Source: Lepisosteus oculatus (lineage: Eukaryota > Chordata > Actinopteri > Semionotiformes > Lepisosteidae). Taken from it: a stretch of 64,000 bases of DNA. The notes under the pieces were generated by a model. That model had not been told where the DNA came from. It searched no databases and saw only the letters and a program-made list of their open reading frames with translations. Shown here in pieces: positions 176-52,100 of this stretch. The first letter of the stretch is position 1, and each line of letters starts with the position of its first letter. The position numbers were made by a program, and so were the translations under genes. Location of the stretch: assembly GCF_040954835.1 (NCBI RefSeq), contig NC_090698.1:4586501-4650500 (forward strand), written 5' to 3'.

Positions 176-243
176 CTTGTTCAGCTCTTCTATTCGTCTC
201 ACAGAATACGGATTGCTTGAAGAGTTTTCAAAGTAAACATAAT
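176..243 (-). CDS. MTA-family gene, exon 2 (start of BAH domain)
   Basis: Minus-strand exon of 68 nt. It has an acceptor (polypyrimidine then ttgcag, 244-249) and a gtacct donor at 175-170. With the G carried over from exon 1 it reads [17 protein letters not shown] then IEELNK, which is the invariant N-terminus of metastasis-associated proteins MTA1/2/3. These are scaffold subunits of the nuclear NuRD deacetylase/remodelling complex, and this segment opens the BAH domain. The remaining exons (rest of BAH, ELM2, SANT, GATA-type zinc finger) lie beyond the left edge. Val before RR resembles MTA2 more than MTA1/3, but 23 residues cannot decide the paralog. Family identity is near certain; I leave the symbol blank because the paralog is open. 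Confidence 0.95.
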
Positions 244-2015: not shown

Positions 2016-2023
2016 ATAAAGGT

Positions 2024-5790: not shown

Positions 5791-6089
5791 CTTGTACCAA
5801 CCCAAATCTACTGCCACATGGTCATAGGTTGCTCTGCAATCTTCCATAGCATAGAAAAGGACGAGAGAAGGACGTGTTACTGCCAGCCAGCTTCAAGACA
5901 CTGAAGTTCCTGATCCCGTCTCCGGCCTGGCTGACCCCCACGTCTCCCCGGGCAAATCGAGAAGTTCATCAGAGGTGTGGCAGGGGGGCAGCTCAGGTGT
6001 CAGGCCCCCCAGCGCGCCCCCCCCCCCCCCTACACGAGCAGACCTTCCACTCCCCACCCTGAAGAACCTCCGAGACACAGCCCCCCGCG

Positions 6090-7570
6090 TGGCCAGGAAA
6101 GGCCTCCCACAGCTCTGGAGGAACTACATGAACACCTAAGCAGACATGAAAAGTCACCCCGAGGGCACATTCATCACAGCGGGGGACTTCCAATGGCGCG
6201 CACCTCGAGAAAATCATGCACAACCCTGGATCAGCATATAAACTGCCCGACACGAGGAACAAACACGGTGGACAACGTTTACACTCCCTTCCAGGATGGC
6301 TACAAAGCCCTCCCCCGACCTCCTTTCGGCAGGAGGTCTCAAGCAGGAGAAGCCTGCAACAGGGACAACCCAGCGCTGGTCAGAGGAATGGGGCTCTATT
6401 AAGTCACTGCTTTGCCACCGCTGACTGGCGGATTTGGCGCGAAGCTGCCTGGAACGACATGAATCTGTACGGGGACTATGCTACTAGCTATATCAGCAAA
6501 CGCATGAAAGACGTTGTCCCCAGGATTACTGTTCGCACATCGCTAAACTACGAGCTAAACTCAGAGCTACAACATCCACCAACACTGGTGACAAGGACAC
6601 GTGCAGAAAATCCAGATCCGATCTCAGAAAAGCCAAGTATACACTACATATACTACAGGGTAAAACTGGAATCACACTATCAGGACGCCCTGGACGCTCA
6701 GAACACGTGGAACGGAACCCACACCATCACAGATCACAAAGCAAAACACAGCAGCACGACAGACCACTTTTCCCCTTGATGAACTAAATTCATTTTATGG
6801 TTCGAAGTCCATAACACGGAATCAGTTAAGGAAATCCCAGTAAACCAGGGGGAACACCCACTGTCTGTCTCCAGAGCCGACGTGTACGGAGTCTTTAAAA
6901 AGACGAATCCACACAAGGCTTCGGCCCCCGACGCTATCCCCGGCCGTGTCCTGAAGGCCTGCGCAGACCAACTAGCGGACATCTTCACGGACATATTTAA
7001 CCTCTCCCTCACTCAATGCACAGTCCCCTCCTGCTTCAAGACAGCCACCATCATCCCGATCCCCAAGACAACCGCAGTCAACTGCCTAAACGACTACTGC
7101 CCCGATGCACTCACAGCCATCATCATGGAATGCTTCCTGCAGCTGCCCAAAGCACACATCACCTCCTTACTGCCTGACAGCTGGGACCCACTGCAACGTG
7201 CATGCTGTCACACGTCCTAGCACATTTTTACAGGCGCACCACTGAAAGCATCCTAACTGGCTGCATCACTGCCCGGTGTGGTGACTCTTCCGCCCGAGAG
7301 TGCAAGGTACTCCAGAGGGTGGAGAAACTGGCTCAAAACACTACCGGCTGCACGCTACCGAACAGAGGATATCTACTCTGTAAGATGCCTCAAGAAGGCT
7401 GGGTCTATCCTCAGGGACCCCAGGCACCGTAACCACAACCTGTTCTCTTGACTACCATCCGGGAAACGGTACCGCAGTATACAGACCAACCTCCTTGAAC
7501 TGACAGGGGGCACCGGCGCCCTCCTGCCTCTTGCGCTCTCAGGACACATACGAAGAGTGCTAAATACCTC
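6090..7570 (+). mobile_element. Degenerate L2/jockey-clade non-LTR retrotransposon
   Basis: Broken frames spell out a LINE ORF2 in order. The end of the endonuclease domain comes first (HINCPTRGTNTVDNVYTPFQ at about 6231-6290, then YKALPRPPFG). An ATADWRIW...YISKRMKDVVP linker lies near 6415-6520. The N-terminal reverse transcriptase follows (KTNPHKASAPDAIPGRVLKA at about 6900-6960, then FKTATIIPIPK and CLNDYCPDALTAIIMECF). The C-terminus (FYRRTTESILTGCITARCGD at about 7226-7285) follows directly after LLPDSWDPLQ, so the catalytic reverse transcriptase core has been deleted. Stops and frameshifts make it inactive. It lies in MTA intron 1. A related C-terminus sits in BLVRB intron 2. Confidence 0.85.
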
Positions 7571-9399
7571 CTGTCCTCGTGTTACTGTCGCACAATCCGT
7601 AACTCGTATTGTAAATTGCAATTGTTTAATTTATTGTATCCTAATGTTGATCTAATCCCTGTAAATTCCCGTCCTTCAACTCTTCTATCCCTCTTAACGA
7701 GCACGCGTTCCCTTCTCCTCCTCCTGCCCCCTCTGCCCACAGCCGAGCCAGTGGGGTCTACAGCCCTTCGCCTCCCGAGACGTAAATAAGGAAACACCAG
7801 CCCCCTGCAGCCGAGGCCTCGGCCTTCACAGCACAACCTCGGCAGCACCAAGGCAAAACCGGACGACTGACAAAACCTTGAAATGGACCGACTGTGCTGC
7901 CAATAACAACCCCAAGCTGGCATACCACAATTTCCAAACTTCTCCCCTGTCCCGCGTGCGAGTCTGAAATGTAGCAGACTGAACCTATTTTCAAGAGGAC
8001 ACCTCAAAGTAGGTAAAAGGCCTTTAGGTTCCTGCTGTTGTAACATGAGCACATACCGTCACCTAACATTCCTGAGCATCACCTTCTGCACTGCGATAGC
8101 TTACCAGTGTCTGGGGTTTTCCCCACAGGAGATCTCCAAGCACGATGGGGCAGCAATCCACTGCTCTCTAATTTTATTAAATGAAAAACAGATAATTGGA
8201 TTTTAGAACCCCCCCCAATAAAAATAAATTTACCTTCCTACTAGCCTACTACGAATGTGCTATTACATTGGCTTGGACAAAATCCACAGCTTTATTCTCT
8301 GTAAGTAACCAGTGAGTATATATATATACAAAAAAAATATTTTCTCCGTCCCACGGATAAGTGTTAAACAAGCCGTGGAGAGGGAACAGAGAGAAGCAGC
8401 CATAAACCGTTCTCTTTAACCTCACAGTAGGCCTCCGGAGATCAGGGTGCTACCTCTACCTGCTCTTCCAAGACACCAGATCGCAGACAGGACCTCACCT
8501 CGTTTCACAGGCCTGTCGAACACCCATTCCTGAATTACAGCCCTGGTTCGGAGCAACATTCTATCCCAATCTATCCCAGACAGGCTTGCGTCTGGCAAAG
8601 CACCGACAACCATTAACTGATTTTGTGGCACAGCAGGAGTTTCCCCGGGCAATTCTGCTGCTTGTGCAGATGTTTACTGGAACGCCTTCACTGCATCTCA
8701 AGCGGCACCGGGTCTGCATTCTTTTTTTTGGAGCGAAACTGTGCAATGGACTTAACGGGATCACAAGTTGAGAAGCATGACTAACAGCTCTTGGCAACTC
8801 TGAGAGACCAGGCAAAAGGTGTGTCACGATTCAGGGTCACGCTGTACCCCCAGTTCCAAGGCATTCCATCTGTCCGCAGTACAGCCCTGCCAGCACGCTG
8901 GCACACTGCAGCCGAATCTCCAACCTGCTCCCGCTGCCTGGCACCCAGCAGGTTCGAACTGCCTCTCCCACACGCAAAGAGTGCAGCGATTGATATGCAT
9001 GTGTGTGTGGGTGTCCGTGGCAAAAACACACAGAAAAGAATTAAAATATTGGGGCGTGATGTATTCAGCGACAGGAAGAGAGCTCACCGCAAGCACAGGA
9101 CGTTTAACATGAACCAACAGAGCAGCCCAGAAACACGAATCTCCTCATTTACCCAGACTGGGAGAAGAGATTTTGGCCAATCCTGAAATAAAATTCCTAT
9201 ACAGGGTATTTAAAAAAAATGCTAGACTTGGTAAAAAACATTTAAGTGGACCAGCTCTTCTGGTAACGTTAATTCATGTCTGCTTGCATACTGCTGCAGA
9301 TAAAGACAGACATTTGTCACTTATATGTATTTTTTTTTTTTTTTACTTTTAACAGGGATGTGCCGAGTTTCGCAGAAACAGCTAGATGCCAACAAAAGC
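7571..9399. other. MTA intron 1 sequence without recognised genes
   Basis: No exon, RNA gene or clear repeat was recognised. There is a poly-C run at 8210, a TA-rich tract near 8316-8328 and a T13-15 run at 9331-9346. Short overlapping frames at 8.8-9.1 kb lack domain similarity. Confidence 0.55.
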
Positions 9400-10510
9400 C
9401 ACCGGAATGCCTTTACCGAGAGCGGACCCCCGTACAAGACTTCACTCTCCATTGCCATATCCGATACCGGCGTTCCCCGCAGCCCAGTTCGGACCCGGTT
9501 CGAACACGCTGGCCTCCTGCCCCAGAGTCCGGCGCGGTTTCTCAGCTCCTCCCGGCCGAGCCTGACGCGCAATTCACGGCTGTCAATCGGCGCTCTGGCA
9601 AGCGGACACGACGCCGTGAAGCCTCGACCTACAACGTCGTCTTGGACTGCACGTCCCGGGAAGAACAACAAAAGGCGCCGGTGACTGTAAGAACTAAACA
9701 ACAACAACAATAATGATGATGATGGGCCACGCTTTAATCCTGCCATTTGTTGGCTACCTCACCACATCAACAGGCCGTAGTCGAGAGGGTCTGAGCAGAA
9801 ACGCACTCGCCGACAGCTGAGCCAACATCACGAACAAACCCCGACAGAAAGTCAAGCTCCGTTCGCCAACTATGTCACGCCGCGTTAAAAAATAAATAAA
9901 AATAAAGTCAACTTCCGCCGCACGAAATACGAAGTGGAAGCAAATGCGAACCACAGAAGAAAACTGCGCCAAACTTTACCCGGCGGCGTGTGAGGGGACA
10001 GCCGGCGTCTCTTTCTGCCAAAAGCGCCGGGCTACTTTTCGGGGTTTTGTGGGAGAAAATACGGGCTGGCCGACGACTGGACCCCCCAAAAAGTCTCCAC
10101 CCCCCAAAAAAAAATGAATTGAAATGATGAAGCTTCCAAACTTACCCACCTCCTACCCTGTACATGTTCGCTGCCATCTTCCACCCCGGCGGTAACAACA
10201 CGCGAACCGGATTACCAGGCGCTACGGCGCGCCGAGATGAGCTGCCCGGCGGGTCTAACGCGATCGGTCCCGACACAGGCCGGACCCCCCTCGCATCGCT
10301 CTCGGCCGCCGCCGGTCCTGGAGAGCCGGGAGAGCCGCGAACGGTTCGATCGGTTGATCAGGTCGGGACTCCGTCCTCCGGCTCGCCGGTCTGTCTGGAG
10401 GAGGAGAAGCGTACGTGTGTCCCGCCGTCGGATCTCGCTGTCTCTCAGCGTGACGTAGACCCAAGCCTCCAGCAGTCCTTAGCCCGTATTAACCATTCTG
10501 GTCCCGGCTG
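9400..10510 (-). promoter_or_regulatory. CpG island around the proximal MTA first exon
   Basis: This stretch is rich in CpG (for example the runs near 9480-9680 and 10180-10450), in contrast to the AT-rich flanks. It contains the proximal MTA start codon at 10177. The likely promoter lies at 10.2-10.5 kb on the minus strand. No TATA box is evident. Overlapping short frames on both strands here have no recognisable protein. Confidence 0.6.
10150..10177 (-). CDS. MTA-family gene, candidate coding exon 1 (proximal copy)
   Basis: Minus-strand ATG at 10177-10175, preceded by GTGGAAG. It encodes MAANMYRVG plus one base, the invariant MTA start. The exon ends in GGAG before a gtgggt donor (10149-10144), giving phase 1, which joins exactly to exon 2 at 243 to make MAANMYRVGDYVYF. 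A stronger-looking gtaagt donor sits 4 nt further on (10145-10140) but would shift the frame. The exon lies inside a CpG island at about 9.4-10.5 kb, so it is a good promoter-linked first exon. A second copy lies at 15419-15446. Which copy is used, or whether both are, cannot be told from sequence. Confidence 0.85.
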
Positions 10511-10999
10511 AGCGTCTTCTACTCCCCTTTGTTTGACCGCGTTTTTAAATACGATGTATAAGGAGGAGGAAAAAAATAACCTTTTTTTTGTAGTTGTTCA
10601 CGGTGATGCAAAACACCAGTCCCCCCCCCCCGCCTTTTGGATGGACAAATTTATATAATTAGATGTATTACATAAATCTATCGCGCTATCTACTATTAGT
10701 TGTCGAAATTATATTTAATAAAACTTGACGCTGGCGTAAAATGACTGCGTTTAAAGAGAGGCGGTGTTGTTTCAAAGTACGTTTTTTTAAGGTGAATACC
10801 GAACGAGGAAATGGATCTGAAATCCTAAGGTTGGCGTACGGGATATAGTGTGAAACTGCACGGTTAGTCCATAGCACGCAGTTAACTTATAGTGCAAAGC
10901 AAAATAAAACTTGTCTTACCCGTGAATAAACCATTTACCAGAAATGTAATAGGAAGTCCCTACAATAACTGGTGTAGTTTGAACACAGGCAGTACAGGC

Positions 11000-11285
11000 A
11001 TGATTTAATTTCGATGCAAGTCAATTTCAGAACCCAACTGCAATTCAATCTGAATCGGAGAGAAAAAGGAAATAATGTCAGAGTCACGGTCAAGGAGTCT
11101 GACATGGAGAATTTGAAATGCAGTAAGAAATCGAGTCACTTGTTTACACAAAGAGCTGTGGGAGTATGGAACATGTAACCCAACCACGCGGTCAAAGACG
11201 ATACATTCACCCCCACCAAGAAAACTGCTAAAAGGAGATCCTGTGAGGAATTAGCCATGATAAAATGAGCTAGACGGGCAGAAAC
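11000..11285 (+). mobile_element. CR1-like LINE 3' fragment
   Basis: A frame around 11143-11172 reads [12 protein letters not shown], the C-terminal signature of CR1-type reverse transcriptase polyproteins ('FTQRVV..WN'). A tail-like 'gaggaattagccatgat' follows. It is degenerate and similar to the better copy at 26715-27275. Confidence 0.5.
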
Positions 11286-11363
11286 AAAATAGATTTCTTG
11301 TGTTTTAAAAAAATATTGTGGATTCTCCTTTGAACACAGCTTTTCATCACATCATTCCATCAC

Positions 11364-11932
11364 CTTAATAATAATCCTTACACATACAGCGCTTTTCTGC
11401 ACACTCCACTCAAAGCATTCTACAGGTCATGAGGATCCCCTCCACCGCCACCAGTGTGCAGCCCCACCTGCATGATGCAACGGCAGCCAGAGTGCACCAG
11501 TACTCTCCCCACACACCAGCTCTCAGTGGGGAGGAGAGCAGTGTAATGAAGCCAATTCAGAGAGGGGGATTATTAGGAGGACACGATTGGTAAAGGCCAG
11601 GGGGAAATTTGGCCAGGACACCGGGGTAACACCCCTACTCTTTTCAAGAAATGCCCAGGGAATTTTAATGATCACTAAGAGTCAGGACCTCTGTTTGACA
11701 TCTCATCCGATGGACAGCGTCTTTTCGACAGTACAGTGTCCCCATCACTGTACTGAGGTATTAGGACCCACACAGACCTCAGGGTGAGTGAGCCTACTGG
11801 TCCCACTAACAGCTCTTCCAGCAGCAGCCTTGGCTTCCCCAGGAGTCTCCCATCCAGGTACTGGCCAGGCTCTCACCTGCTGGGCTCCACTGGGCTGCCA
11901 GCTGTGAGCTGTAGGGTGATACAGCTGCTTAT
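11364..11932 (-). repeat. 5S-derived SINE, near full length, antisense
   Basis: Reverse-orientation copy. The ATT-rich tail is at 11364-11376. The body phrases follow in reverse order, and the 5S head ends near 11910 with the box-C string (read on the minus strand as GGATGGGAGACT) near 11845-11860. It abuts a tRNA-derived SINE at 11935. Confidence 0.85.
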
Positions 11933-11934
11933 TC

Positions 11935-12228
11935 GATACAGAGTTACAGAAAGCCAGAGCCTATCCCAGGAAGCTACGGACTCTGGATACACCCTGGCTA
12001 GGATGCCTGTCTACTACAGGGCACACACAGACTCACACCACGGCCATCTATCCAGAAATAATGAATCTACCTTTCTATCTTTGGACTGTGGGAGGAACCA
12101 GGAGCACAAGGAGGAAACCCCCGCCAACACAGGGAGAACGCGCAAACTCCACACAGACAGCACCACAGGAGCTGAACCCAGGGCCCCAGCGCTGCAAGGC
12201 CGCAAACCTAACCACCGCACCTGAACAC
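11935..12228 (-). repeat. tRNA-derived SINE (V-SINE-like), antisense
   Basis: Read on the minus strand, it starts with a tRNA-like head (gcggtggttagg A-box region, GGGTTCAGCTCC B-box region near 12170-12185). The well-known fish body follows: 'gcgcgttctccctgtgttgg', a 'ctcctggttcctcccacagt' section, and a distal part with 'gagcctatcccagg' on the plus strand. It directly adjoins the 5S-SINE in the same orientation. Confidence 0.75.
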
Positions 12229-15099
12229 CACTTCGGGTTTTCTTGCATTTATTCTATTATTTATTCGATTTGGCTTGAAGTCCAAAGCAAGATCGATTTG
12301 TACAAATCGATACAGCGGGAAATCTTACTAAAACAATTTCAGTGACACTCAAAGGTTCAACGGCAGCACGCTCACCTGAGCCTAGAACAACCTGGCTGTC
12401 CCAGGTCCAGAACCCTAGCCTACATGCATGACGTGTGCCCCGTGTGTAGGAGCTGCTCTGACCAGACCAGCAGAAGGTGCAGACAGCACCTTGCAAGACA
12501 CCATGTTCAAAAAGTAACGAATCAAAGATCATTCAAATCCAGGATCGTAGTAACACAGAAGCACAGAAATCACATCTCCCTCCCCATTCAACCACAGCAT
12601 TTCACACGATGCAAAAAAAACGTTATTAAAAATGAAACTTGCCCTTGTTTGCACAGGCGCCTTACAAAGCAGACAAACTGTACATTAGCCACTTAAGAGT
12701 AATATAGAAATTGAACGCTGGCCTGCATTGAACACAAGGAATAGTACACATGCCCAGAGTCTTCTATATGTGACCAGACACAGAGGTAAAGGCATGAAAT
12801 TTAGCTACAGTTTGTATTCCGAACTCCCTTCTAAAAAAGGCTGGATTAGCACTGTTCTGTGGTTCTGTGCACATAATCTGGCAGCTGCTTTATGAATATA
12901 GACCGATGATGATCCCTGGTATTTGCATTATATAAATGAGCAGGAGAGCACACAGTGGGAGCGCACATCTCAGTGGTCCTGTCTGATACTGCACCCCACT
13001 GACCAGTACACCCATTCATGCCTCATGGCCGATGGTCATCCCCCAGTGGGTCTACATCACCCAAGGGTCCCTGCATGTCTATGTTGTTGTAGGACAGAAA
13101 TCAAAACTGCTCGTGAAGTAACGTAGCACATAAGCACTGGGCAGACCCACCAGAGCTCTCAGCATTTTAAGAAATGACATTAACAAAACTAAAAAAAAGT
13201 TGCTACATGATAAGTCTGTGTGCTCCCCTCCAGTGCAGAAAAAAGAAACAGGGGTAGCGTTGCTTCCCTTGAGCTTTCTATTAGTATGCTGTTCAGACTG
13301 TAACAGTGATGCAAAACCCAGGCAAAAATGAACTGTTAAGCATAATTAAGATGGATTATGTGTAATAAGAATGTAATCTTTTTAACAAAGCGGTACTCTT
13401 TATCTCCCTCTTCACAGGAAAAGATCAGTTTCAAATAACCATAAAAAATTAACAAGAAGTATAAAAATAGATTATTTTAATGCAAAACACACTCCAGTGC
13501 CGCTTTAAAAGTCATGTTTAAAAAAGGGTATTTAAACGTCACAGGTTCTCTCTGAAGAAGAACACCTTTAGGGACTTGTGCCATCCTGTGAATGGTTACC
13601 AGTCAATGGTCTGCACCTGAAGCTCTCCTGCAGACTTGTTCACATAAAAGTAATTAACTACTGGCAAAGTTTAGAACACAGAGAGCAGACTGATTTTTTC
13701 CCCCTTCTCCCATTATTAATTGTAAACTATTTCTGAAGATTTACTATCGGAACAGACTGATCTCGGAAGGACACATCATCGTTTAGGGGGCTCTCTCCGG
13801 CCTCTCTCTCACCTCTGTGAAACCCTGTTCCGACGCGAAGCCCAGCCAGAAAGTGAAATGAGTTTGAAGGGTCTCAGCTTCGCCCCCTGGTGGCCCTCTG
13901 TCCACTCCGCAACATCTCCATTCATTGATTTCGTCGGTTGGGAATGAGGGTCAAGAGTGAAGAGTATAATAATTTGACCCGAGATTCCGGACTCCAACTC
14001 AGACTGAACGCCATTAACCTTCCGTGGCCCAGAATCACCTATCGGATTCTACGCACAGAATGCGTACACCCTCGCTCACACACGTGTGTTATACTGTATG
14101 TGCACACACACACACAAAGTGCATTTATATGGAGTGGTGCGGTGTTATGGAGTGCGATTTCTGAATGCCACCATCAAAAACAATCTACAGATCGCGGGCG
14201 GGCATGCATGCATTTGGTAAAGATTACGTGGAGTAATTCAATGCAGTTTGTGTACTGAAGCAATTCGCTGAGATGCCCAGCACAGCTGCAATTCATTCTT
14301 AACCGTCAAATTCTCAAGCAGCTTCGGGTTTTTTTTTTACAGTATGCTGTCATAATAACAACAATCCCTCCATATTGTCCACTCGTTTCCTGAGCAGCAG
14401 CCTATATTTGTCTTATTCCCCTCCCCTTTTACTATAGACTCCACTTGTCTGTGGGCGACTACGTTTCTATTAAAGTATACCATGCCGCAGACTGTAGTCT
14501 TGCACGGGTAACACCAAGCGAAGCTCTATATCGAGAGCACCACACACACACACAAAAGATACAGCACTCATCATGTATCCAAATGCTTTATGCTGTGTAC
14601 CGGGTCTTAATGTTAGCCTGTATGTTAAGCTCCTGTCTCTCAAGTCTCGCCATTGTCGCCATTAGAATGCCAGTTCGGTGGCCTCGTTTCACCCTTATTT
14701 TTTTGTGATACACGATGGCACAGTCATTATATAACGACAGCAGGAGCGAAGAAGACGGGATTCGTTGTTGTTTTTTTCCCCGTTTGTCTTCTGCACCAAC
14801 AACCCTCCTCGCTGGTGTCCGAGAAGACTATTAACACGGTTTCGGAGGCACGCGTAAAACCCCCCCACAAATATCGGATAATGCCATTTCAAAGCCAGCC
14901 AGCCCACAGCCGCTAATAATAATAATAAAATACAACAACGTGCGTTTGAGCAAAACTTTTGGACAATAGTTCCGTGACAAAATGTGCAGGAACGAGAGGA
15001 AATTCACCTTTCCCAACATTCATTTCTGGATATTTTCCTGTTCTTTAAATAAACATCAGTTATGTAATTGCACCCGATTAATCTTTTCAGCACAGCATC
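12229..15099. other. Sequence between the two MTA first exons
   Basis: No coding exon was recognised. It would be intron 1 of the distal-promoter transcript and upstream flank of the proximal promoter. It contains a strong CTCF-like motif at 13881-13893, CA-rich stretches near 14102-14116 and 14540-14556, and otherwise AT-rich unique-looking sequence. Confidence 0.6.
13879..13900 (-). promoter_or_regulatory. CTCF-like motif
   Basis: The plus strand carries CGCCCCCTGGTGG (13881-13893), the reverse complement of the CTCF core CCACCAGGGGGCG. The motif is therefore on the minus strand. It lies between the two MTA first exons. Confidence 0.55.
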
Positions 15100-15480
15100 A
15101 AGCAGCATTCCAGCCTGAGCGCAGCGGTGATGTATTATAATCCTGCTCACTGTTACACAAATGGCTCCGTCTGAGGAGATGAAAGAGAGGGGGGAAACGA
15201 CTCAATTTATTCGCTCTTATTTATTTTCCTGGCGCTCCGGTATAACGCCGGCGACTCGGCGGCGGTGTATCTGGGAATGTGCGAAGTAGATTTTATTTCC
15301 AATGGCCAAAGTTGGGACGCAAAATATCCTTTAAAAAAAAACATGTTAAACGGATCGCCCGTTTCGTACACCACACCCCTTTACAACCCCCGTGCAGTTT
15401 TGGAACCATCAAACTTACCTCCAACCCTGTACATGTTCGCTGCCATCTTCCACTCCTTAATGGAATAAAAATACGGTTGT
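15100..15480 (-). promoter_or_regulatory. Probable distal MTA promoter region
   Basis: Moderately CpG-rich sequence around the distal MTA first exon, notably 15225-15275. The minus-strand promoter would be expected immediately above 15446. The sequence just upstream (15450-15540) is AT-rich and lacks a strong CpG island, so this promoter looks weaker or more tissue-restricted than the 10-kb one. That is inference from composition only. Confidence 0.35.
15419..15446 (-). CDS. MTA-family gene, candidate coding exon 1 (distal copy)
   Basis: Second minus-strand copy of the MTA first exon. The ATG is at 15446-15444, again preceded by GTGGAAG, and encodes MAANMYRVG plus one base. It is followed directly by an ideal gtaagt donor (15418-15413) in phase 1, compatible with exon 2 at 243. 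Within the 28 coding bases it differs from the 10.15-kb copy at one synonymous site (GTT versus GTA for Val). Similarity ends just outside the exon and donor, so this is not a recent large duplication. Retention of frame, start context and donor argues that it is functional. It would imply an intron 1 of about 15.2 kb. Confidence 0.85.
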
Positions 15481-17934
15481 TGCTGTTGTTATTATTCTCT
15501 TACAAAAACCTCCGAGCTTGAAGACTCCGAACTTCGCTCCTGGCGATTCCGATGTCCAACAGTTCCTATCTTCACCTGCTACAATACGCCCCTCAGCTCG
15601 CTGCACAAAACACAGAACATGATTTTTTACGTTATTTTTTTTACGTGTGTCTCTCTGTCCTACTGTCTTCTTTTTTTTCCTCTCTCTCTGACGTCGGAAC
15701 CATAATCTTCGACAATCTTGAATACTTTAACCCTTTGCGGGCCCGTCCGCATTTACCAACACCCCTCGGCGACTTGCAAATTCTTCCGAAGGAGAATCAT
15801 TTGGCTGGAATAATGCGAGTCTTTGGACGAGAGTTTACGACATCAGAATGAGCTGGCCCAGACAATTTCTTAGTCGCACGGTCGTGTATGTATGTGTGTA
15901 GTCCTGTTTAACAACCTGTCACGTTTTATTTCTTTGAAAAGGAAAAAAAAAACTAAGGAACAAATACACGCAGGTATCGAAAGGCGTATTTAGCACTGGT
16001 TCTAGGAGTTTCATAAAAACAGCTCTCTGTGCGACTCAGCGTAGGCGATTATCAAAGTTGACCACGCTGAATGTGCAACATGGTTGAATCTTGCATTTAA
16101 TCTGCTCTGCCTCGTTTCTTTACATATTGTAATGTACTTTAACAGCACAATCCTTTACTCTGATACCAGTGTGCATAACTTTTCTTTAAACGGCGTATTT
16201 TGTAAACCGCGTTTACTGCGGTATTTCACAGTAAGCACTAAAAGGAAAACTGTACTGTCCCAGATGAGTTTTTTTTCGTATCTATATCTATGCATAACTT
16301 GCAAATGATGGATGAAAGCTGTTCCGCACGCCTGTAAATTCTCAAATCAGTGCTGCTGCTTTTAGAATGATCCATCACGGCACGTTCTCGCATCACGAAC
16401 GAGTCATTTTCCCAACTTACGGAGACAGTATGAGAAGACTGAAAAAAAAAAAACCTGTAAGCTTTGCTTTAGGTATCTGTGTCTATTTTAATGCAACAGT
16501 CCAAAGCATTAAAATACATTTTGAAGTGTGTTTTAGTGGCACAGTGTTGTTTCTTTTTTTTTAAAAGTCGCCCCTATTGTCTCCTGATTTGGTAAGGAGA
16601 GGCCAGAGGCACACAGACGACTTGAGAAATGTTTATCTACTGTAAGGCAAGTGGGTCGTGACCGTTAGAGGCGCACACGGGGTTAATTCGAGTCCCGCAA
16701 ATCGCTCTGACGTCCTTCAATAGGTGAGGTCAGAGCTGGAGACAACACATAAAACATTTTTAAGAGGAAAAAAAAAATCAAGATGTAAATATCCAGTTGT
16801 CACTTTACCACTGACATTTTCCGCCGTCATATTTCCTCCTCTGTCAAAATACTCCGGCGGCACAAAGTTAGCCGGAGTGCACGCTGACAAACATTAAAAT
16901 AAGAGAACAAAAGACATTTGAGATGTGTTACCAAAAGGGAGGTGGGGGGGGGGGAGCGTGGATGAATATGATTAAATTTAAGCGGCGGTTAACTGGTCCT
17001 TTTCTTCATTGGAAGTGGTGTGCTCCTGATCCGTCCGCGCCTATAAGGGAATAAAGTAGTACCATACTGGCACAGAGTCAATATCCATCCGGGTATCAAT
17101 AGAAGATAGCGAGCGAGAAGCCGATCCATTAAAATCTGCATGGTCCCTATTAGAGGGAGGAGCTAAAGACCCTCAGCAAGAAACACACACATACTCACAC
17201 ACATACACACACAATCACACTCTGCCAGGCACGGTTCATTAAAGTCACAGGGGCTTATTAAGAGAACAGACAGCTTGAAGCACTAGCAACTTGTTCATCC
17301 CTTTGTTTTAAGACATAACAGGACAGCTCTGCTCATTTAAAACAGGTTTGAAAAAAATGTGCAGTATTACCCTCTGGTACACCAGCAATCTGTGCTTTAA
17401 CAGTTCAAGAGGAACATATGAAATTGATGGAAGGTATATATCGTATATCTTACAAATTAGATCACAGTTCTTGGGTAGTATTTTTTCATGCCTTCAAATC
17501 ATAAAGACCATACTCTGTACTCTCCTACCTCATTTATCAACAGACAACAGACTGCTGGCATGCAGACTTGTAGGCTTCTATCAGTACCCCTGGTTAAAAC
17601 ACATGTCTTTGTAGAAAGCCTGAAAAAATAAGACACAGCTCTGGAAAGGGACCCTAGAGTAAGACTTGGACAAGTTCTGGTCTCGTCCACAGGCGAAGAG
17701 ATCTGGAAAAGATAACAATTTTAACTTGACAATTTTGATTTTACAATTCAGCACCTTGACATTAGCCCGAAGTGATGGAAACAGCTACTACACAGCACAG
17801 CTACAGTCAAACTGCTTTCCTTTCGGATTTATTCCCCTGCCTGTTTCCATCGCCTGCCCTGTCCAAATGGGTTCAGCAGAGCAACGCCGGACAGGCTAGA
17901 TTGCTTTACAGAGGGGGCATCGCCTGGCTCCTCA
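15480..17934. other. Intergenic sequence upstream of MTA
   Basis: AT-rich, with poly-A and poly-G runs (for example 16946-16957) and a CA-rich stretch at 17184-17218. No gene, RNA or clear mobile element was recognised. Confidence 0.55.
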
Positions 17935-23474: not shown

Positions 23475-26400
23475 TCATCTGACCAGGTGGTACGTGAGCC
23501 AGTACATGAAGACGGGCTGCAGGCCCGCGATGGCCATGGTCAGGTACATCCGGAGCTGGTTCTTCGCCCCCCTCACCAGCACGCCCTCCGCTGCCGCCTC
23601 CGAAAGGATCTTCAGCCTTAAAGTCTTGATCTGCCGGGGGGAGGGGGATCATGGGAAACTGTCAGCATGTGGGGCAAAACCTCCTGTTGCCACAGTCCAG
23701 GGGCTTATTACATCAAACACCTTCAACATCAAAGCCCTCCATGTGAAATAGCGTGTCTTTTTCCCTTAACTAAGGGTACAAGTCGGGTGAGACAGGCACA
23801 TAGAAGGGAAAATTCAGAGGTTTTACATGCAGAGCATCGAAAGGAACCCATCACTTACAACTGCAACAGGCCCACAAAGTTAACCAGCGATGACCTGTGT
23901 CACATCTGTTCAACGATACAAGTGTCTACTGTGTGTGTAAGCCTCAGGTTAGGAACTTGTGGCCACTGTTGTTCTGCAAAATAGTGCTCTGCACCAGGCT
24001 GAAGGTGGTGTCCTGTGGGATTGTGTCCCATTCTCTCACACACTCTGGACAAGCATGTGACTGATCACTGATCTCTGGCTCCTGCCTGGCAAGCAGTGCA
24101 CAGGAAAACGTCCACATTCTCACTGAGCAGCACAGTTGATCTTCCACAAGCAGCATGGGCACAAGCGTGTTGTCCTGCTGCAAGCTTGTTGTGGGAGGAT
24201 GAGAATGTAATTTCAGTGTAATTTTAAGAAATTATAATAAAAGCCGAAATATCCAAAAAAATCTTTAATTAATTACATTGCTATTTCATAGCCTCTCTGA
24301 GGAATCTTTCTTTTTGGAAATGTAGGGGGAACAAAAACTGGCGCTTTTCAGCATAACAATGAAAGTGAGGTGAGTGCACATGGGTCACCTTGTCTTGGCA
24401 ACGCAACAGGTCCATTTCAGTTTTCCAACATGATGCGGAGGATCACTCAACAAAACTAAAATTAAAAAAAACACAAACTAAAAGCTTACCATGAAGACAA
24501 AGATGGCTATGCAGCACCAAAGCAGCATCAGATAATAACCTGTTCTTCCGAAAAGCAGCCCGGCCACAACTCCTACAATCATTCTGCAGGGACAGGGGTG
24601 AAAACGTGAAGGACAAGTTACACCGAAGAACCTACCCAAGTCAGCACTTTCCAAACTAACGCGGTACCCTTCTCAGCCAGGGCGTGAAAGCAGTTTTTTC
24701 AGGAACATTTTTTGTCTTTGTTCTTCCTTAAGGGTGCTCTAAATTGCTTTTTTTACGGTATGATTCCCTTTTTACGGTATGAAAGTGTAAAAGTAAAATA
24801 GGAAGATGTGGAACATGTCAACACGTTGGAGACATTTTAATCAGGATACTTTACCACCTGCTTTCTCCAGTGCAGGCAGCGAGCTAAAAGCATAAACAGA
24901 GTATAGTAACTACCCTGTAATCTAGCAAATGCACAACTGTAACTCTATAAAAATGCACTGAGCATGTAACACCTATATTCTCTGCATGTAACAATACAGC
25001 TGCATCCTTAAACTTCTGCCTTTTCGCCCAGTGTCTGGATGGTATTCTTTTAAGGAAAGACTTGGGAATGTTTGCACAGCTGTCTTTATCTGATCAGGTC
25101 CCCAAAGCAGTAAACATGGCAAGGAAAGTGTCCTAACTTTTCACTGAGAGTAAACCAACTGTGGTTAATCAGTAAGTCAGCCTTCTTAGAGGATCAGCAC
25201 AGTAGAGGGTAAAAAGATCAGACAGAATAGCGCAGACTGGATTGCATTCTCTTTTTCTATCCCTTCGAACCATGCGCCAGATATTTACAATGCAGTGAGC
25301 ATCTTTACTCAGCTGACTACCTTTAAGCAGCTGAAACATTGTGTTGTTGTAAATATATGGCCATTTCTAGTAACTTTGTTACTATGCTGCACTGCAAAAT
25401 GAAAAAGACCTGTGCCATGTGACACTCGGCATTCCCTGAAAATAGGGGTGCATACTTTTTAGTTTTTATACATTTTGCTTGCTTAGCGAGGTAGTATCTG
25501 GACCAGATGGTTTGATGGAGATCAGTTACTGTTTACTCTCTCCTTACGGTCACGTCTGTTAAGAGTACGGACCACTTCTCAGATAAAAGCTTGGGTTTGA
25601 GCCTGCTCCATTTTAGGCTTGGTGTTTTACCTCCTGTTTCTAATCTATATCCAGGCTCCTCATTTGAATATGCCAGACCAGTGTTTTGCAGACATTCAGC
25701 ACTTTCTGCTAGCATTAGAATTGCCTTACCCCACATACTTGTACCCAGAGAAGGCTATGAGGTCAATGGTGGTGAGGTCAGTGTTGACTGTGACGAGGTA
25801 CAGGCTGAGGAGAGTAGCCAGCACTTCGATGATGAGCCACACCAGGGCTGAGCTGGCCTGCATGCCCAGAATTTCAGGGGAAAACCTACACACCACAGGA
25901 GGAAAGGAGGAGAGGAGCGGTGACCTAGCTTGACTTTGCTCTGATGGGATTGTAAGCTACAGCCTGGATTGCTTCACTGGCAAACCCCCACGTCAACATA
26001 CAGGACCCTGGCAGCAGCTGCACGGCAGCATTTCTGCCAAACCTCGCCATCACACAGGACTAACACTGCCCATTTTTAAACCACACATGCACTTCCTGTG
26101 ATCCATCACTCACCTGCCATGATTGTTGCATCTTACTCTAAACAACACATTGCATACTCCAGTACTGCAATACTGCATACTGCAAGTGGAAAGTTTTCCA
26201 CACTATTTAAGGAACATTTTTGAACAAGCATTAACCCCTGATTTAACAATAATATGATTAAAAAATATCGGGGGTGCTTGAGCCCCCACCCCACAGCACC
26301 CACAGAACACTGCTCCTAGGATTCCGATGAACGACACAATAAGCAACCAATGAATCTGAACTATACAATAAGTAAACCCTTTACAAGCTTTTACAAAACA

Positions 26401-29400
26401 CATCCAGGTAAAGACAGACACCTCAGCCCTTTTTTCAGCAGCTGCAATGGAAGACGCAAGCTGAAGAGAGAGACAGCAGCCGTCTGTTACAAGAGTGCAG
26501 CTCTATATCAGTGCTGTGTGGCGCAGTAACCTTATACAAGCGCAAAGCCTGCCAGCTCACCTGTTCTGAGTCCCCAGAGCCAGCCCTGCCACCAGGATGT
26601 AGGTGATGAATGCCATGGCTGTGGTAACAAACAAGACTGCAGGTTAGGAAAGACACTGGCTGAAGGAACTGTTTGTGTCGACTCATCATGTACATCTTCT
26701 AATGCGGAGAATCAATTCAAAAGGCAAACAAGATGTTGAGTATAGTCAAAAGTGTAGAAACTGAATTAAGGGATGTGATGTTAGGATTGTACCAGGTACT
26801 ATTTAGGCCTCGTTTAAAACACTGTGTACAAATTTGGTCACCACGTTATAGATAAGATCCTGCTGCTCTGAATCACTCCAGAGAAGAGCAACTGGATTCA
26901 TTCTGAGGCTTAAGGGAATGTCCTACACCGACAGGCTGAAGGAACCAAACCTTTTTAGTGTTGAACGGAGATTATTACTAGGGGATCCTATACAAGCTCT
27001 CAAAAATCTAGTAGGTTTCTTCAGAATTGTGTGAGTGAAAGACAAACCTGAGGACACAGGTGAAAAGTAAGTGGAAGTGTATTTAAAACTGAGTACTGGT
27101 GGCACTGCTTTACACAAAGGGCAGTGGGAGTATGCAACAGGCTACCCCCCGTGCTGTTGAAATTGAAACCCCCAGTGTCTTTCAGGAAACTGCTGGATGA
27201 GATCCTTGGATCAATTAACTACTAATTAACTAAAGGGCAAGATGAGCCTAATGGCCTCCTCTCATTTGTAACCTTTCTGAGGTTCCCATCAGTCAGATGC
27301 AAAGGAACTATACTGTTAGTACATGCTGATGCACCAGTCATGTGGTCCTCGCTTCCAGAACAGATGGGGGCTTCTTGTGTCCATTCAGTCTTGTATCCGG
27401 AGCGGAGCTCATCGAGCTGTGGCTGATCTCGCCAGTGTAGCGTTAAGGCAAGGAGCGGCACGGTTTGCCATTCCGACACGGCATTGGGCCCTGGAAAACC
27501 TGTGGCTGGAAGGTTGCCGGTTCAAATCCCGTGGCCGGCAGAGGAATCCTACTTCGTTGGGCCCCTGAGCAAGGCCCTTAACCCCAACTGCTCCAGGGGC
27601 GCCGTACAATGGCTGACCCTGCGCTCTGACCCCCAGCTTCTCTCCCTGTCTGTGTGTCTGTGTCTCCCTGGAGAAAAGCTGGGGTATGCGAAAAGACGCA
27701 TTCCTAATGCAAGAAATTGTATAGGGCTAATAAAGAAACATTATTATTACCAAGCGCAGTCAAAACTCTGATGACGGGCGGCTATGTGCTGGCTGGAGGA
27801 ACCTCAGCCCCCTGCTGGCCCAAGCAGTGCTGTTCTTACCTGGAATGTACAGGTCAGGGGCGTTGATATCGAACCTGGGTGCCACTGGGGTGTCCTGCTG
27901 GTAACTCACCTCCCAGTTCTGCACAGAAAGCCAGGAGAGGATTACAAAAGAGCACTTCAATGTCTCCCATCACATAGGCAAACACGCCAGGGGGGGGACC
28001 ACTGAATTGCCAACGCAGCGGCAATCAGCCCAGGGGAGAGAAACAGCTGCACCCCACTTCAGGCTTCTGACCCTGAGCAGTACATGCTGTACATTCAGCA
28101 ATTAAAAAACCTGTAAGCAAGCCTCAGAATGAGATCAGTCACAGCAATACAGAATCTCTAATCTACTGACACAGAATCGATTCTAAAAGTTTCCCTTTCA
28201 GCATGAACCACTCTGGTAAATCCAGCTGTCTGGAAGCCAGTGTTCTCACATTATTTCTCTCAGAGGTGAATATGGAGTGTTTCTAGTCACTGTGAACTTC
28301 AAGGTCTTGCATCCAAACATGAGCCAGACATCTCCCGCTGTCACTATTCGGCAGTTACAGAGGCGAGGGCTCAGCTGGCCAGATATTTTGTGCATTGCTT
28401 CTGTCTGTTGACAAAAAGCCTTGCTTTGATCCAGAAGCTTATCGGAGTGACCCCTTCTGCTCCTGAACGCCATGATCTGCATGCAGCACTGGGCAACAGT
28501 GCGCGAAACCGGCCGCCACGTGGCCCTGCAGAGCTCAGAACACCTCTGCACAACAGGAGGCTTAAAATCGCTGGGTTACATTCCACGCAAATAATCCAAT
28601 TCCAGTTAAAAGCAAAAATCAATACCTGGTGCATGTAAGGGAAGACCAGCAGGCCGAGCTTCCTGCCCACATAGACCGTGTCCACAGCAAAGTAGTATTT
28701 CAGCTTGGAGATGGGGATGAATCTGTCCAGCTGTGGGGTTCAGAACTGGTCAGTTTGACACCTTGTTGTTTTTGGAATCATGCAGGTTTATAGTCAGGAA
28801 AGTCAAAAGCACACATGCCTCGAACACAGAACTGGAATCCTTAGTGGACTCAGTTAACAAAGCCGGCCAGGCACTGCTGCAGGCCCAGCTGTGACAGCGA
28901 AGGGGCGTCTTCAACAAAAGAAGAGACCTCATCGTTTCTTCCTGTAGCGATGCCGGCCTCGTTAACACTGACCGCTACAGAGGAGCTGTAACGAGCGCAC
29001 AAAGGGCCTTGTCTTCACGCACAACGCGAGCACGCACATATGAGCTGCGAAGGCAAGCAGCAAGCATGCAAACGAAGGCAAAAATTCGTTAAATAGCGGC
29101 TTAAAAACTTAATGACTGTGCAGAACATTTTGCCAACAACGGTCTTGAAAGTTACTCTTCTATTATGAATACAATTATGATGATATTGTAATATAAATTC
29201 AAGAGGATTTTACATTTCGGCGGCAGATGAATGGAGCCCTGATCAATCCATGAAGATACCATTTAGGAGAAAAGGCACTAAAGGAATGCAAAGGGTTATT
29301 ATTCAGACTCCGGCTTCAGATGTCCTTACCCCATGACTAAGGGACTAAGCCTCTACTTACATTTTTGTCCACGATCTGTTTTCCCTGACTGGCCAGACTG

Positions 29401-32400
29401 CTGCCATACGCCATTGCCAGATTGGACATGGGGTCGGAGAGCAGAGCCTGTCCTGGGTAGCCCGCCCCCGCTGCTTCTGAGCCCCTGAAACCCGGGCCCG
29501 CCGCCCTCCTGCCGGTGCTGGTGTCATCGAAGAGCTGGCTGGGTTCGGCCCCGTCCGGCGTCGCGTTCCTCATTCTCGCTTTCTGTTCTGGAAGCGGCAA
29601 AACCCTCGCAGGTCAGAGATCAGAACGCAGAGACGGACGCAGGCCTGCAGCCATGCGAGGAGTGCCTGCAGGCACGCACTCCATACGCTGGCACTGCAGT
29701 GCATTACACACGAGGGCAGCGCGCATCTCTGCTTTTCACATGAACAGGCTGCAGGCCAAGACAGTTACTCTGTGGAAAAAGAGGAATCGCACCCCCTCGC
29801 TAGGCAGAGGTGTTGCAGAGATTGATCTTCTGTTCCAAGTCAACACTGTGCCGTTTCCCCACACTCTTCTACTGGGCCCCAAGCTTTAGGGCTCTGGTAA
29901 ATAACTGGTAGGACTGGTCCCGAGCAGCTGAACTGTTGTTAGTATACTTTGGAGGAAAACTCCTATGAGTCAGAATTCCAAGAGACAAGGTACAAACAGC
30001 TCACCTTAAAAGAGATAAATAGGGAAGTGCATGAAATTAATACTTTATTCGTCTAATGCTCCCAAATAAATGTGCAACTAGGGATGTTTTGTGCATTTAA
30101 ACAATTTCCTACTCAGTCGCCGTCAGGTTATTCTGCTGTGGATTTGCACTCTCACCGAGTGAGCCTGCAGTGGAAAAAGCATTCAGCATTTGATTAGAAT
30201 CGAGCAGCGAAAGCTGGGGTGAGCGAGAAGCATGCCTCGCACATCACTCTGTGTGTTTTTGTTTCCTATTTATCGACCCCAAAAGCCGAGCAACCCTTGA
30301 TTTGTCATCACCTACTCACCTAAGGCAACTTCATCCTAACCTCCTGGAATACGCCGCCTAAATACAGGCGTAATAAATTCACGAAGCCCTTGTGCAAACA
30401 CAGCAGCATAAACATGTCGCTGTAGGCTGTGTCTTGATCTACAGTAGAAGCATTTAAAACTGAAGAGGAATCCCAAACCTACAGGTGACATTTGCTGGGT
30501 TATGCTGATTCATTCGGTGCTGTTGCATCCCAGGAAATTCCAAAGCCAAGGAAAATGCTCCACATCCTCCACACTGCGCCCAGCACAAAAACCCCAGCTT
30601 GTCTCGACCTCAGTGGAACATCACAAGATGTTTTCGCCCAGAATGAATTTCTCTCAAGAATAAAGACTGCATTATTTCATCCGCAGCCAAGATGTCCCTT
30701 GAAGAGGTCACAGGAGCGAGGCAGCAGAGCTGGTGGAGTGGTGCCACAACAACCAGGAGGCCTGACAGGACACAGCCAGCTGGCACTCAGAGCTGAGCAA
30801 GTCACATGAGCCCACGTCTCTGCTGGACTCTTCTCTCCAGGTGCTGGGCCTTTCCACCTCAAGGCACAGTCAGGCATTTCTCTGCTAAACTGGATTTGAC
30901 ACATATTTAAAAGGCACTTTCTCCTTTCCTTAAAACGCAATTCCTGAAACTGCACTCCAGTGTCTCTTATAAAGCTGAATGCTCGTTTTCTGAACCCAGC
31001 TTCTGAACACTGTGGATGTGCAACCCATAAATGTTGCCATATGTGCTGTTAAAATGCACATATTGTCAATAAACCTGTAGGTATTCATTTATGGTAGCTG
31101 TCAGCAGCTTGTCTGTAAACTGTGCACTATACTGTTATACTATATATAACGTCGGCCTGTCTCCTGTAGGGAAACAGTACAGAGCCTCCCCCTCTGGCAT
31201 CTGAATCAAGACTTCACGTGGGAGAAAGAGCCTCCTCTGATCTGAACTAAAAATACCCCCCCCCTTCCTGTTTCTGGAGCGCTAGAAGTCCTTCACCCTT
31301 TCTAAAAGATGCTGTGCTTAGTACCTAGTTCGGTCTGTGCCCAGATTTACTACCACGACAGAAACTAGAGCACATTGACATCAAACCCCTAAAGCCAGTA
31401 TAGTTCTGAAGCATACCACCTTCTAGAAACAAACCCCCCTGCTATATAGAGGGACAACAGAAGCAGGTCTGAAATCCCGTCATAGTTTAGAGGTGAGGCG
31501 AGTGCCCCAGGTTGACAGCTTGTGCTGAATCCTATTCCTGGGACTGAGATCTTGAGCTGGGACCATCCGCAAGAGGCACAGTACCAGACAGAACAGCTAC
31601 ATTCTGCAGGGCCTGATGCAGACACTCACACAGACGACTGATATGTTAAAAAAAAAACTTTGACACATCTATTGAATGCTACAAAAAAAAATCCTTTTTC
31701 AGCCAATTTATCTCCTTGGATTTTCATCTGCGCAGTGCTGCGTTTTAGGACACTGTTCATGCGTCAGACCTCATTCTGACAAAAAACATTTTGGCAGGTC
31801 CCTACACCCTGTCCTGCTTATGAATTAAAACACTGCATGTCAGTGTTCCACAAGGACCAGACTATGAAATATGTGTACAAGACAAGAAGATATTTCAAAC
31901 AAAGCTAAAACTGGCTTTTTCAAGCACTATGGTAGACTTACACAAAGATGAAAAGGAGAACTCTGGATGAGTCAAGACAAAAATTCTAATTGCATTTTCT
32001 CCAGTGGACAAGACTGACTGAAAACTTCACAGCCTGTATTGCCTAACGAAATGTCACGGCTTTGTTCACGGACCATTATTAAATTACAAATATCAAGACT
32101 CCCAGGCTTTAAAAACATGTGCCGAAGAACTAGGGCCATGAACGAACCCTCTGCCCCAACAGCTACAGAAAGCACTGGGCCGGCTGTGGTCTTACTCGGT
32201 ACCCTCCTCACTGGCACTGCGGTTCAAACAGCCTTCTACCGTAGTACTTAAACCGCTGTGCTAGGAATAATGTCAATTGTGCTTTACCCAGGTAAAATGG
32301 GGAAAAACTTCGTTTCCTGCAAAAAAGACGACAGCTGTACACTTGCGTCTTCCGCGTCGCTTAGTTCTTCTCAATTCAAAGAGCTTCTTTCAGCAACACA

Positions 32401-34274: not shown

Positions 34275-34347
34275 GCCCGGCTAGCTCAGTCGGTAGAGCA
34301 TGAGACTCTTAATCTCAGGGTCGTGGGTTCGAGCCCCACGTTGGGCG
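34275..34347 (+). tRNA. tRNA-Lys (anticodon CTT)
   Basis: A 73-nt cloverleaf. The acceptor stem GCCCGGC pairs with GTTGGGC with G-T wobbles, and G73 is the discriminator. The D arm holds the A box (TAGCTCAGTCGG). The anticodon loop ACTCTTAATCT shows CTT at the anticodon position. The T arm holds the B box GGTTCGAGCCC. There is no intron and no encoded CCA. A TTTTT Pol III terminator lies at 34355-34359, eight bases downstream. The sequence agrees with the conserved vertebrate cytosolic tRNA-Lys-CTT as I know it, so it is very likely functional. Confidence 0.98.
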
Positions 34348-39922: not shown

Positions 39923-40795
39923 TCAGGAGCCCACCAGGATTTCCATGATGTGCTCCAGCTCATTCAGGTCCCGCACGGAGGGGGATGGGGAGAACGCAGA
40001 GGAAGCGGGGGAGCAGGAGGACAGGTACTTGAGGAGTTCGTCCCCGGGCGGCACCGGGAAAGTCCGCCCGCCCAGCGCGCCGGCCTCCCGCTCGTAGACG
40101 GAGGTGTCGATGTCCGGGAAGAGGTCATCCAAGGCGACGTCGGTGAGGTAGCTGGACCTCATGATCTCGAAGCTGCCGAACACCGGCTCGGGGGCCCTGC
40201 AGGCTTCCGGGCCCTCGCCGGGCCTCTCCGCCCGACAGGGCAGGCCGTCCTGCTTGGACCCCCAGTCGCTCGGCAGGTTCTCGATCGAGCTCAGGGGGGC
40301 CCGTTGTTGTTGTTGCTGCTGCTGCTGCTGCTGGGGGCCCGGAGAGGAGCTCCCATCCAGCACCAGGTCCAGATCCCTGAGAAGAGAGGAGATGGCGGAG
40401 GACAGGGAGAAGTCCTCCTCCGCGGACAGGAGCGCCCAGTCGTCGCCGTCCCCGAACCCCGGGCGGTGATTCTCCAGAGACATCCTCGGAGGGGGGGCTT
40501 CCTTGTGAAGGCCGGGCTCTGGCGGGATGGGGGCCGGGACCCGCTGGTCCGGGACGGAGCCCCCGGCGCCGTCCTGCCTGATCTCCTCCTGGATCTGCCG
40601 CAGGGTGTTGGCGATGAGCACGGAGCGGCGCAGGCTGGGCTCCGCCAGCGCCTGCCCGCGGCGGAACTTGTCCAGCGAGATGTCGAGCACCGACTGGCGC
40701 TGGGCCGCGTACAGGCTGCTGCCCTTCTCCGCGCGGGCCCCCGCGGGCAGCTCGCCGTCGGCCGGGAGCTTGCGCTTCTGCCCCTTCACCTCCAT
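39923..40795 (-). CDS. SERTAD3: SERTAD3-like SERTA-domain transcriptional coregulator (290 aa)
   Basis: SERTA-domain proteins are nuclear regulators that interact with E2F/DP, RPA or p300 partners. The single coding exon encodes a basic start with QKRKL (residues 6-10). The SERTA domain spans about residues 31-75 (RQSVLDISLDKF, EPSLRRSVLIANTLRQIQEE). An acidic EEDFSLSSAISSLLRDLD motif follows, then a Q10 tract, LDDLFPDIDTSVYE, and a C-terminal NELEHIMEILVGS. The order and motifs match human SERTAD3 (about 196 aa) best, but this protein is about 90 aa longer through low-complexity linkers. An acceptor (tctcccgcag) lies 7 nt upstream of the ATG, so an upstream non-coding exon is expected. BLVRB as upstream neighbour matches human SERTAD3-BLVRB order. 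SERTAD1 or an unduplicated SERTAD1/3 ancestor is possible. Confidence 0.88.
   Translation of the reverse strand: MEVKGQKRKLPADGELPAGARAEKGSSLYAAQRQSVLDISLDKFRRGQALAEPSLRRSVLIANTLRQIQEEIRQDGAGGSVPDQRVPAPIPPEPGLHKEAPPPRMSLENHRPGFGDGDDWALLSAEEDFSLSSAISSLLRDLDLVLDGSSSPGPQQQQQQQQQQRAPLSSIENLPSDWGSKQDGLPCRAERPGEGPEACRAPEPVFGSFEIMRSSYLTDVALDDLFPDIDTSVYEREAGALGGRTFPVPPGDELLKYLSSCSPASSAFSPSPSVRDLNELEHIMEILVGS
40302..40331 (-). repeat. CAG/CAA tract encoding polyglutamine in SERTAD3
   Basis: On the minus strand, six CAG codons are followed by four CAA codons, encoding Q10 between PGP and RAPL. It is in frame in the SERTAD3 linker. The plus-strand GTT/GCT shadow produces spurious Leu/Cys-rich frames. 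Confidence 0.95.
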
Positions 40796-40879
40796 CCTCC
40801 GCCTGCGGGAGACACGAAACAGACCGTCAGAGAGCGCCCGCGTCCCAGCAGGTCCCCCCGCCTCTCCTCCCAGGGACTA

Positions 40880-51824: not shown

Positions 51825-52100
51825 GACGCCTGGAGAGCAGTAGCAGTGAGCTACAGCCACACGCTCAGTGTCACAAAGCTCGGCTTGGAAAGCGAAACCC
51901 GGTCTGTTAGAGGCGATAAGGAGGGTCCGCCCCCCACGCCGAGCGCTCACTTCCGCGACGAACTCCTCCCAGGATTAAAATCTACATTCCGGGCCATTGC
52001 GTATTGACAGCCCGGCTGAGCCATAAAAGACTACACCAAGTGCAAAGGTCTCACAATCGTCACGAAACTGTGGATTCGGCACTTTTTTCAAAAGCTCTTG
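51825..52100 (-). promoter_or_regulatory. BLVRB: BLVRB promoter region
   Basis: CpG-containing sequence immediately upstream of the BLVRB start codon, with GC-rich stretches at 51925-51975 and no TATA box at the expected distance. The boundary is inferred. Confidence 0.45.

Follow-up and report, generated by a model that had tools for sequence, protein, structure and literature searches.

The 64,000-nucleotide stretch of the Lepisosteus oculatus genome analyzed here (C3:4586501-4650500, where C3 stands for the contig NC_090698.1; hereafter referred to as the window) carries on its minus strand the 5′ part of a gene of the MTA family, which includes exon 2 and two copies of the first coding exon, as well as genes of the YIF1, SERTA-domain, and BLVRB-like types (Table 1). 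Each exon 1 copy is 28 nt long and is directly preceded by the heptanucleotide GTGGAAG; the single difference between the two copies, GTA/GTT, is synonymous. The coordinates of both exons, the MAANMYRVG peptide, the GTGGAAG leader, the phase-1 GT donor, and the one synonymous base were all correctly given in the original prediction, made from the sequence of the window, as was the compatibility of both donors with the exon 2 acceptor at position 243. When spliced in silico to that acceptor, copy 1 and copy 2 each continue in frame and yield identical 32-residue products, which carry the family's N-terminal sequence from the BAH region and match residues 1 to 32 of MTA1 from the PDB entry 7ao8 with an E value of 1.4e-14.

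The similarity of the two exons is not a chance match, as, apart from copy 2, no ungapped match to copy 1 on either strand of the window has fewer than 9 mismatches in 28 positions, and a search of the 1.2-Gb genome with a 34-nt pattern, allowing up to 3 mismatches, found just these two places (reversed control, 0 matches). The latter result also rules out a dispersed repeat. Within the window, GAAGATGGC is confined to the two copies, and stray matches in viral and prokaryote sequence collections numbered 0 and 0.

Table 1. Features of the window (positions are counted from its first nucleotide)
Feature	Position	Strand	Remarks
Copy 1 of the first coding exon (MAANMYRVG + G)	10150..10177	minus	The closer of the two copies to exon 2
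Copy 2 of the first coding exon	15419..15446	minus	5269 bp upstream of copy 1; one synonymous difference
Copy 1 leader, GGGGTGGAAG	10178..10187	minus	9 of 10 bases in common with the copy 2 leader; TISU/YY1-like start context GAAGATGGCAGC
Copy 2 leader, GGAGTGGAAG	15447..15456	minus	Weak acceptor-like ATTAAG ending at -9
Copy 1 tandem donors, GAG/GTGGGT (in frame) and, 4 nt on, TGG/GTAAGT (frameshift, stop in exon 2)	10140..10149	minus	
Copy 2 donor, GAG/GTAAGTTT	15411..15418	minus	8 of 9 bases match the consensus
MTA exon 2	176..243	minus	Acceptor common to both copies, preceded by TTTTTTTGCAG; introns of 9906 bp (copy 1) and 15175 bp (copy 2)
CpG-rich island around copy 1	9051..11250	none	Observed-to-expected ratio (o/e) of at least 0.95 in 600-bp windows; exon o/e 1.25, GC 0.59
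CpG-rich island around copy 2	14401..16550	none	o/e of at least 0.95 in 600-bp windows; exon o/e 1.16, GC 0.44
YIF1-family gene exons	25729..29612	minus	Pfam YIF1 at 25729-25956 above the cutoff; 29340-29612 below the cutoff
SERTA-domain gene (SERTAD-like)	39926..40876	minus	Open over 317 codons
BLVRB-like (biliverdin reductase B) exons	46661..51974	minus	49645-49950 matches 1hdo with E value 1.5e-18; 46661-47023 weak, below the cutoff
BLVRB-like ATG exon	51824	minus	Assigned by eye, without a Pfam match
tRNA gene	34275..34347	plus	Rfam score 65.1 bits; inside a CpG-rich stretch at 32.3-36.0 kb
Reverse transcriptase-like fragment (LINE type, by eye)	6783..7217	plus	Lies downstream of copy 1, in its 9906-bp intron

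In a local alignment, the two copies share 51 positions (score 76), from 10 bases upstream of the ATG to intron base 13 in copy 1 or 9 in copy 2, a block that includes a 4-nt insertion in copy 1. The continuation of this common block into the intron rules out a retrocopy. Without gaps, the first 12 intron bases of the copies agree at 6 positions, no better than the 3 to 8 seen among the paralogous MTA genes. Past the block, the flanks align no better than shuffled sequences (of 200 shuffles, 20 scored at least as high upstream and 125 downstream), and a 7-mer blastn comparison of the two CpG-rich islands that surround the copies returned, after the exon block, next matches with E values of 0.26 and worse. 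Thus, the flanks show no similarity above the background, in line with the original claim that they are unrelated, although only beyond the 51-position block and not from the exon borders. The copies are found on the same strand and in the same order, as expected for the remnant of a whole-gene tandem duplication of which exon 1 alone is left. However, the window contains no second exon 2 (the best other match to it has 33 mismatches in 68 positions), other tblastn matches of MTA1 residues 1 to 181 in the window have E values of 0.71 or worse, and the copies have no common flanks. This origin is therefore highly improbable, and tandem duplication of the whole gene or of kilobase-scale segments was rejected.

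The 4-nt insertion changes the splice site of copy 1, whose junction reads GAG/GTGGGTAAGT and offers two GT donors 4 nt apart, so that the earlier assumption of a single phase-1 donor per exon holds for copy 2 and fails for copy 1. The first of these donors keeps the frame; use of the +4 donor would yield MAANMYRVGGGLCLL followed by a stop codon in exon 2. The calculated U1 duplex energies of the copy 1 donors are -11.6 and -10.3 kcal/mol; the copy 2 donor lies between them at -10.7, and the donor of exon 2 is at -5.6. The matches to the nine-base donor consensus are 6 for the first copy 1 donor, 7 for the +4 donor, 8 for copy 2, and 6 for exon 2. Given how close the energies and consensus matches of the copy 1 donors are, neither appears clearly favored, and with such a rival donor in copy 1, the two exon 1 units need not be equal in their output. 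Tandem donors of the GYNNGY type have been reported to bring in stop codons often, and the title of that study refers to them as more noise and less regulation (PMC4267661); in 72% of the strongly regulated cases, the second donor leads to a stop in the next exon (PMC4267661). The copy 1 sequence GTGGGT resembles this type in having two potential donors 4 nt apart and a predicted stop in the next exon from the second one; it differs in that the tandem donor is found on just one of two apparent alternative first exons.

Searching the genome with a degenerate 26-mer for MAANMYRVG gave five matches: C3 had two, and the other contigs that carry an MTA gene (C8, C17, and C18; see below) had a single one apiece. 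The control gave none. Accordingly, by pattern, two copies of exon 1 are found only in the C3 gene. A looser scan of 80 kb of C17, 90 kb of C18, and 124 kb of C3 (C8 was not included) revealed nothing else with more than 5 of the 9 residues. The exon 1 of the MTA3-like gene at C17:14769179 (minus strand) has an acceptor-like CCAG that ends 10 nt before its ATG; this exon lies outside any island, with an island 3.6 to 6 kb upstream, and might be preceded by a non-coding exon, which would make it the second.

The two C3 exons have 9 of 10 leader bases in common and differ in 1 of 9 codons, with an alignment score of 76. In the remaining nine pairwise comparisons of the five exons, 1 to 7 leader bases out of 10 are common, 2 to 5 codons out of 9 differ, and the scores range from 32 to 62, the closest pair being C17-C8 (7 leader bases, score 62). 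Hence, the silent and leader sites of the MTA exon 1 have drifted in the time since the paralogues split; the C3 pair is either younger than the paralogues or held by a constraint specific to this gene. Unless such a constraint exists, the duplication probably postdates the split of the MTA paralogues. Because the flanks of such a young duplication nevertheless fail to align, the copied piece would have been short, about 50 bp or little more.

If, on the other hand, the duplication was ancient, the sequence of the copies has to be held by a DNA-level element, for which the start context is a candidate. The 12-letter consensus of the TISU element is SAASATGGCGGC, although the text of the TISU paper does not give it. 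TISU elements go with a very short 5′ UTR, with transcription starting no more than about 30 nt upstream. At both C3 copies, GAAGATGGCAGC matches this consensus in 11 of 12 positions, with one mismatch in the core; the three paralogous exons score 9, 9, and 10. In the TISU element, the ATG is embedded in a promoter element bound by YY1 (PMC2518114), and the start context AAGATGGC of the C3 copies is similar to it, differing by the core mismatch.

An ancient duplication would have included the entire promoter with exon 1; the flanks would have since diverged and only the start module would have been kept by selection at the DNA level, acting on a YY1/TISU-type element, the start context, and the donor. 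Both islands are promoter sized, the limits of the similarity coincide with functional limits, the C3 copies are the best TISU matches of the five exons, and the C17-C8 pair indicates that similarity of the leader may persist to some extent. If the protein alone were constrained (at saturation and with equal codon use), a difference in at most one codon out of seven would have a probability of about 0.003, so an ancient origin would need constraint at the DNA level. That constraint would have to be special to the C3 gene, given the drift in the other nine pairs. An ancient event is thus possible but doubtful, and we judge a short, younger one to be about twice as probable. This alternative concerns the age of the duplication and agrees on function with the two-promoter reading favored below, so that their probabilities overlap; the explanations considered in this work generally overlap, and their likelihoods do not sum to one.

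With respect to promoters, the most suggestive sign is that each copy lies in a CpG-rich island of its own. In 600-bp windows centered on the exons, the CpG o/e values are 1.25 for copy 1 and 1.16 for copy 2, compared to the average of 0.62 for the whole stretch; values this high are seen in 2.1% and 5.0% of the windows, respectively. The sequence between the islands is CpG poor, with o/e of 0.2 to 0.6 over most of the 11.2- to 13.8-kb region, and the copies fall in two separate islands at all 16 of the 16 combinations of window size and threshold. At the 600-bp/0.95 setting, the exon midpoints are 12 bp (copy 1) and 44 bp (copy 2) off the island centers. This mid-island position depends on the setting but seems more telling than location in an island as such. 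The 400-nt upstream region of copy 1 has 2 ATG codons and that of copy 2 has 5, every one of which is closed by a stop codon before the start codon.

Several observations weigh against two functional promoters. Depending on the setting, islands occupy 21 to 44% of the window, so location in an island is not rare and can be regarded as suggestive only. The exon 1 of the C18 gene lies in an island; that of the C17 gene does not (o/e of 0.69 within 300 bp, 0.40 for the region), and consequently an MTA exon 1 need not be associated with an island (for the C8 exon, o/e is 0.78 over the 451 surrounding bases). The islands may also serve other transcripts. A search for eight core-promoter motifs in the 400 nt upstream found none for copy 1 and a single CRE-like site, at -251, for copy 2. 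The TISU mismatch of both copies falls within the block that was needed for transcription in the 2008 paper (PMC2518114). Finally, the ATG, the nine codons, the phase, and the GT donor are kept in both copies, yet at 4 to 10% divergence the 23 constrained sites would remain intact by chance with a probability of 0.39 to 0.09, so that an intact frame points only weakly to selection; the islands carry more weight for a two-promoter function.

This chance of intactness (9 to 39%) would also fit one of the copies being a passive by-product, i.e., a short piece of about 50 bp, templated by exon 1 and inserted into or next to another CpG-rich element, that is rarely or never used and is intact because it is young. 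The C3 pair is more alike than any other pair of exon 1 sequences, and the flanks show nothing, as such an origin would predict. However, the copied piece is almost exactly a functional unit, comprising the leader, the exon, and the donor, and both copies are roughly central in their respective CpG islands, which would rarely be expected from random landing. On balance, we consider a passive copy unlikely. Much the same can be said of the idea that copy 2 is an internal coding exon behind an upstream non-coding exon, as looks possible for the C17 gene. The ATTAAG of copy 2, with a pyrimidine tract of 0.73, ends at -9, adjoining the start of the similarity, and the C17 exon offers a clearer case, a CCAG with 0.8 pyrimidines that ends at -10. 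Still, AAG is a poor acceptor, the CAG at -36 lacks a pyrimidine tract (0.2), and copy 2 itself is found near the middle of its own island, all of which makes this arrangement rather improbable.

Taken together, the sequence data make it fairly likely that the C3 MTA gene has two alternative promoter/first-exon units that share exon 2 and encode one protein. The original prediction of two promoters for one protein is partly supported, by the interchangeable frame and the separate CpG-rich islands, and has to be amended for the +4 donor of copy 1, owing to which the outputs may differ. Each exon 1 copy would have its own promoter and splice to the common exon 2. Copy 2 (upstream, with one strong donor) and copy 1 (downstream, with a GC-richer island and a tandem donor) would then differ in the cells that use them or in their level of use. 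The +4 donor could further tune the output of copy 1, since it would introduce a stop codon in exon 2 and probably lead to decay of the mRNA. What both sites have retained would be a start module made up of the leader, the ATG set in a context of the YY1/TISU type, nine codons, and the donor. In this scheme, we infer the transcription and splicing of both copies, the use of YY1, and the decay. The complete scenario, in which a start module of ~50 bp was copied over a distance of 5.3 kb inside a fourth MTA gene and now operates in two CpG-island promoters with an identical protein product and, in one case, a frameshifting donor, is tentative.

A duplicated exon 1 with alternative promoters is already known: in PGM1, the published precedent, exon 1 is duplicated, there are two alternative promoters, and the exons are common from exon 2 on. 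The C3 gene resembles PGM1 in its duplicate exon 1 and common exon 2 onward, with the in-frame joining predicted here from the sequence. The two PGM1 copies encode segments that are about 51% identical, are over 420 million years old, and give rise to two isoforms. In contrast, the peptides are identical here and the DNA sequences nearly so, leaving no protein difference open to selection; the identity of the peptides is what sets this case apart. Within the family, human MTA3 similarly has two promoter-specific transcripts, which are used differently in gastric cancer cells (PMC7836456). However, duplicate copies of one coding exon are not mentioned for these transcripts in the available text of that paper (PMC7836456), and the MTA3-like gene of the present genome has one exon 1 by pattern. 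A review of MTA3 lists at least seven splice variants, with no mention of a duplicate exon 1 in its available text (PMC12827195). The literature searched, which leaves out most subscription papers, yielded no account of an MTA gene with a duplicate exon 1.

The assignment of the C3 gene to the MTA family, made in the original prediction, is supported by its exons 3 to 6, which are located beyond the window, at 4584352 to 4579355, and match MTA1 at 74 to 87%; its place in the family is revised here to a probable fourth member. Including the window positions 1 to 15446, the gene spans C3:4579355-4601946 on the minus strand. With the first 181 residues of MTA1 as the query, on which the family matching rests, all 20 of the 20 MTA exon matches listed by tblastn (20 candidates scored) were on C3, C8, C17, and C18, five exons on each, although this list is possibly a lower bound. 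Over 142 hand-chosen conserved residues, the matches to human MTA1 number 134 for the C8 gene, 126 for C3, 122 for C17, and 114 for C18. From these counts, the C8 gene can be called MTA1; the C17 and C18 genes we take to be MTA3 and MTA2, respectively, from their signatures. All 10 of the 10 matches to the HELP domain of EML proteins (23 candidates scored) were on the same four contigs, at distances from the MTA genes of 0.14 Mb (C17), 0.02 Mb (C18), 3 Mb (C3), and at least 9 Mb (C8). Counterparts of the YIF1-like, SERTA-domain, and BLVRB-like neighbors of the C3 gene lie on human 19q13, whereas MTA1, MTA2, and MTA3 are located on human 14q, 11q, and 2p. Since the four MTA genes lie on EML-bearing contigs and the C3 gene has neighbors of the 19q13 type, it is probably the fourth MTA ohnolog (MTA4-like) from the two early vertebrate genome duplications, nearest to MTA1. 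To our knowledge, mammals have three MTA genes, and the fourth is not among them. In zebrafish, a study of the NuRD complex reported three MTA orthologues by BLAST (PMC4038851), and no paper on an MTA4 was found in the literature searched.

Elsewhere in the window, the BLVRB-like ATG likewise lies in a CpG-rich island. A plus-strand TISU-like sequence, AAAGATGGCGGC, at position 42900, in a CpG-rich stretch at 41.75-45.15 kb, could mark the start of an unrecognized gene.

If true, the copying of a ~50-bp module would mean that a gene can acquire a promoter, with its protein unchanged, by duplicating an exon-sized piece, and the locus would illustrate a route to a second promoter in a gene whose first coding exon is tiny. 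Should both copies be used, the protein could not be the target of selection, so that this gene would offer a clean natural setting in which to test whether expression control is selected for. A fourth MTA gene, in turn, would matter for the makeup of the NuRD complex outside mammals.

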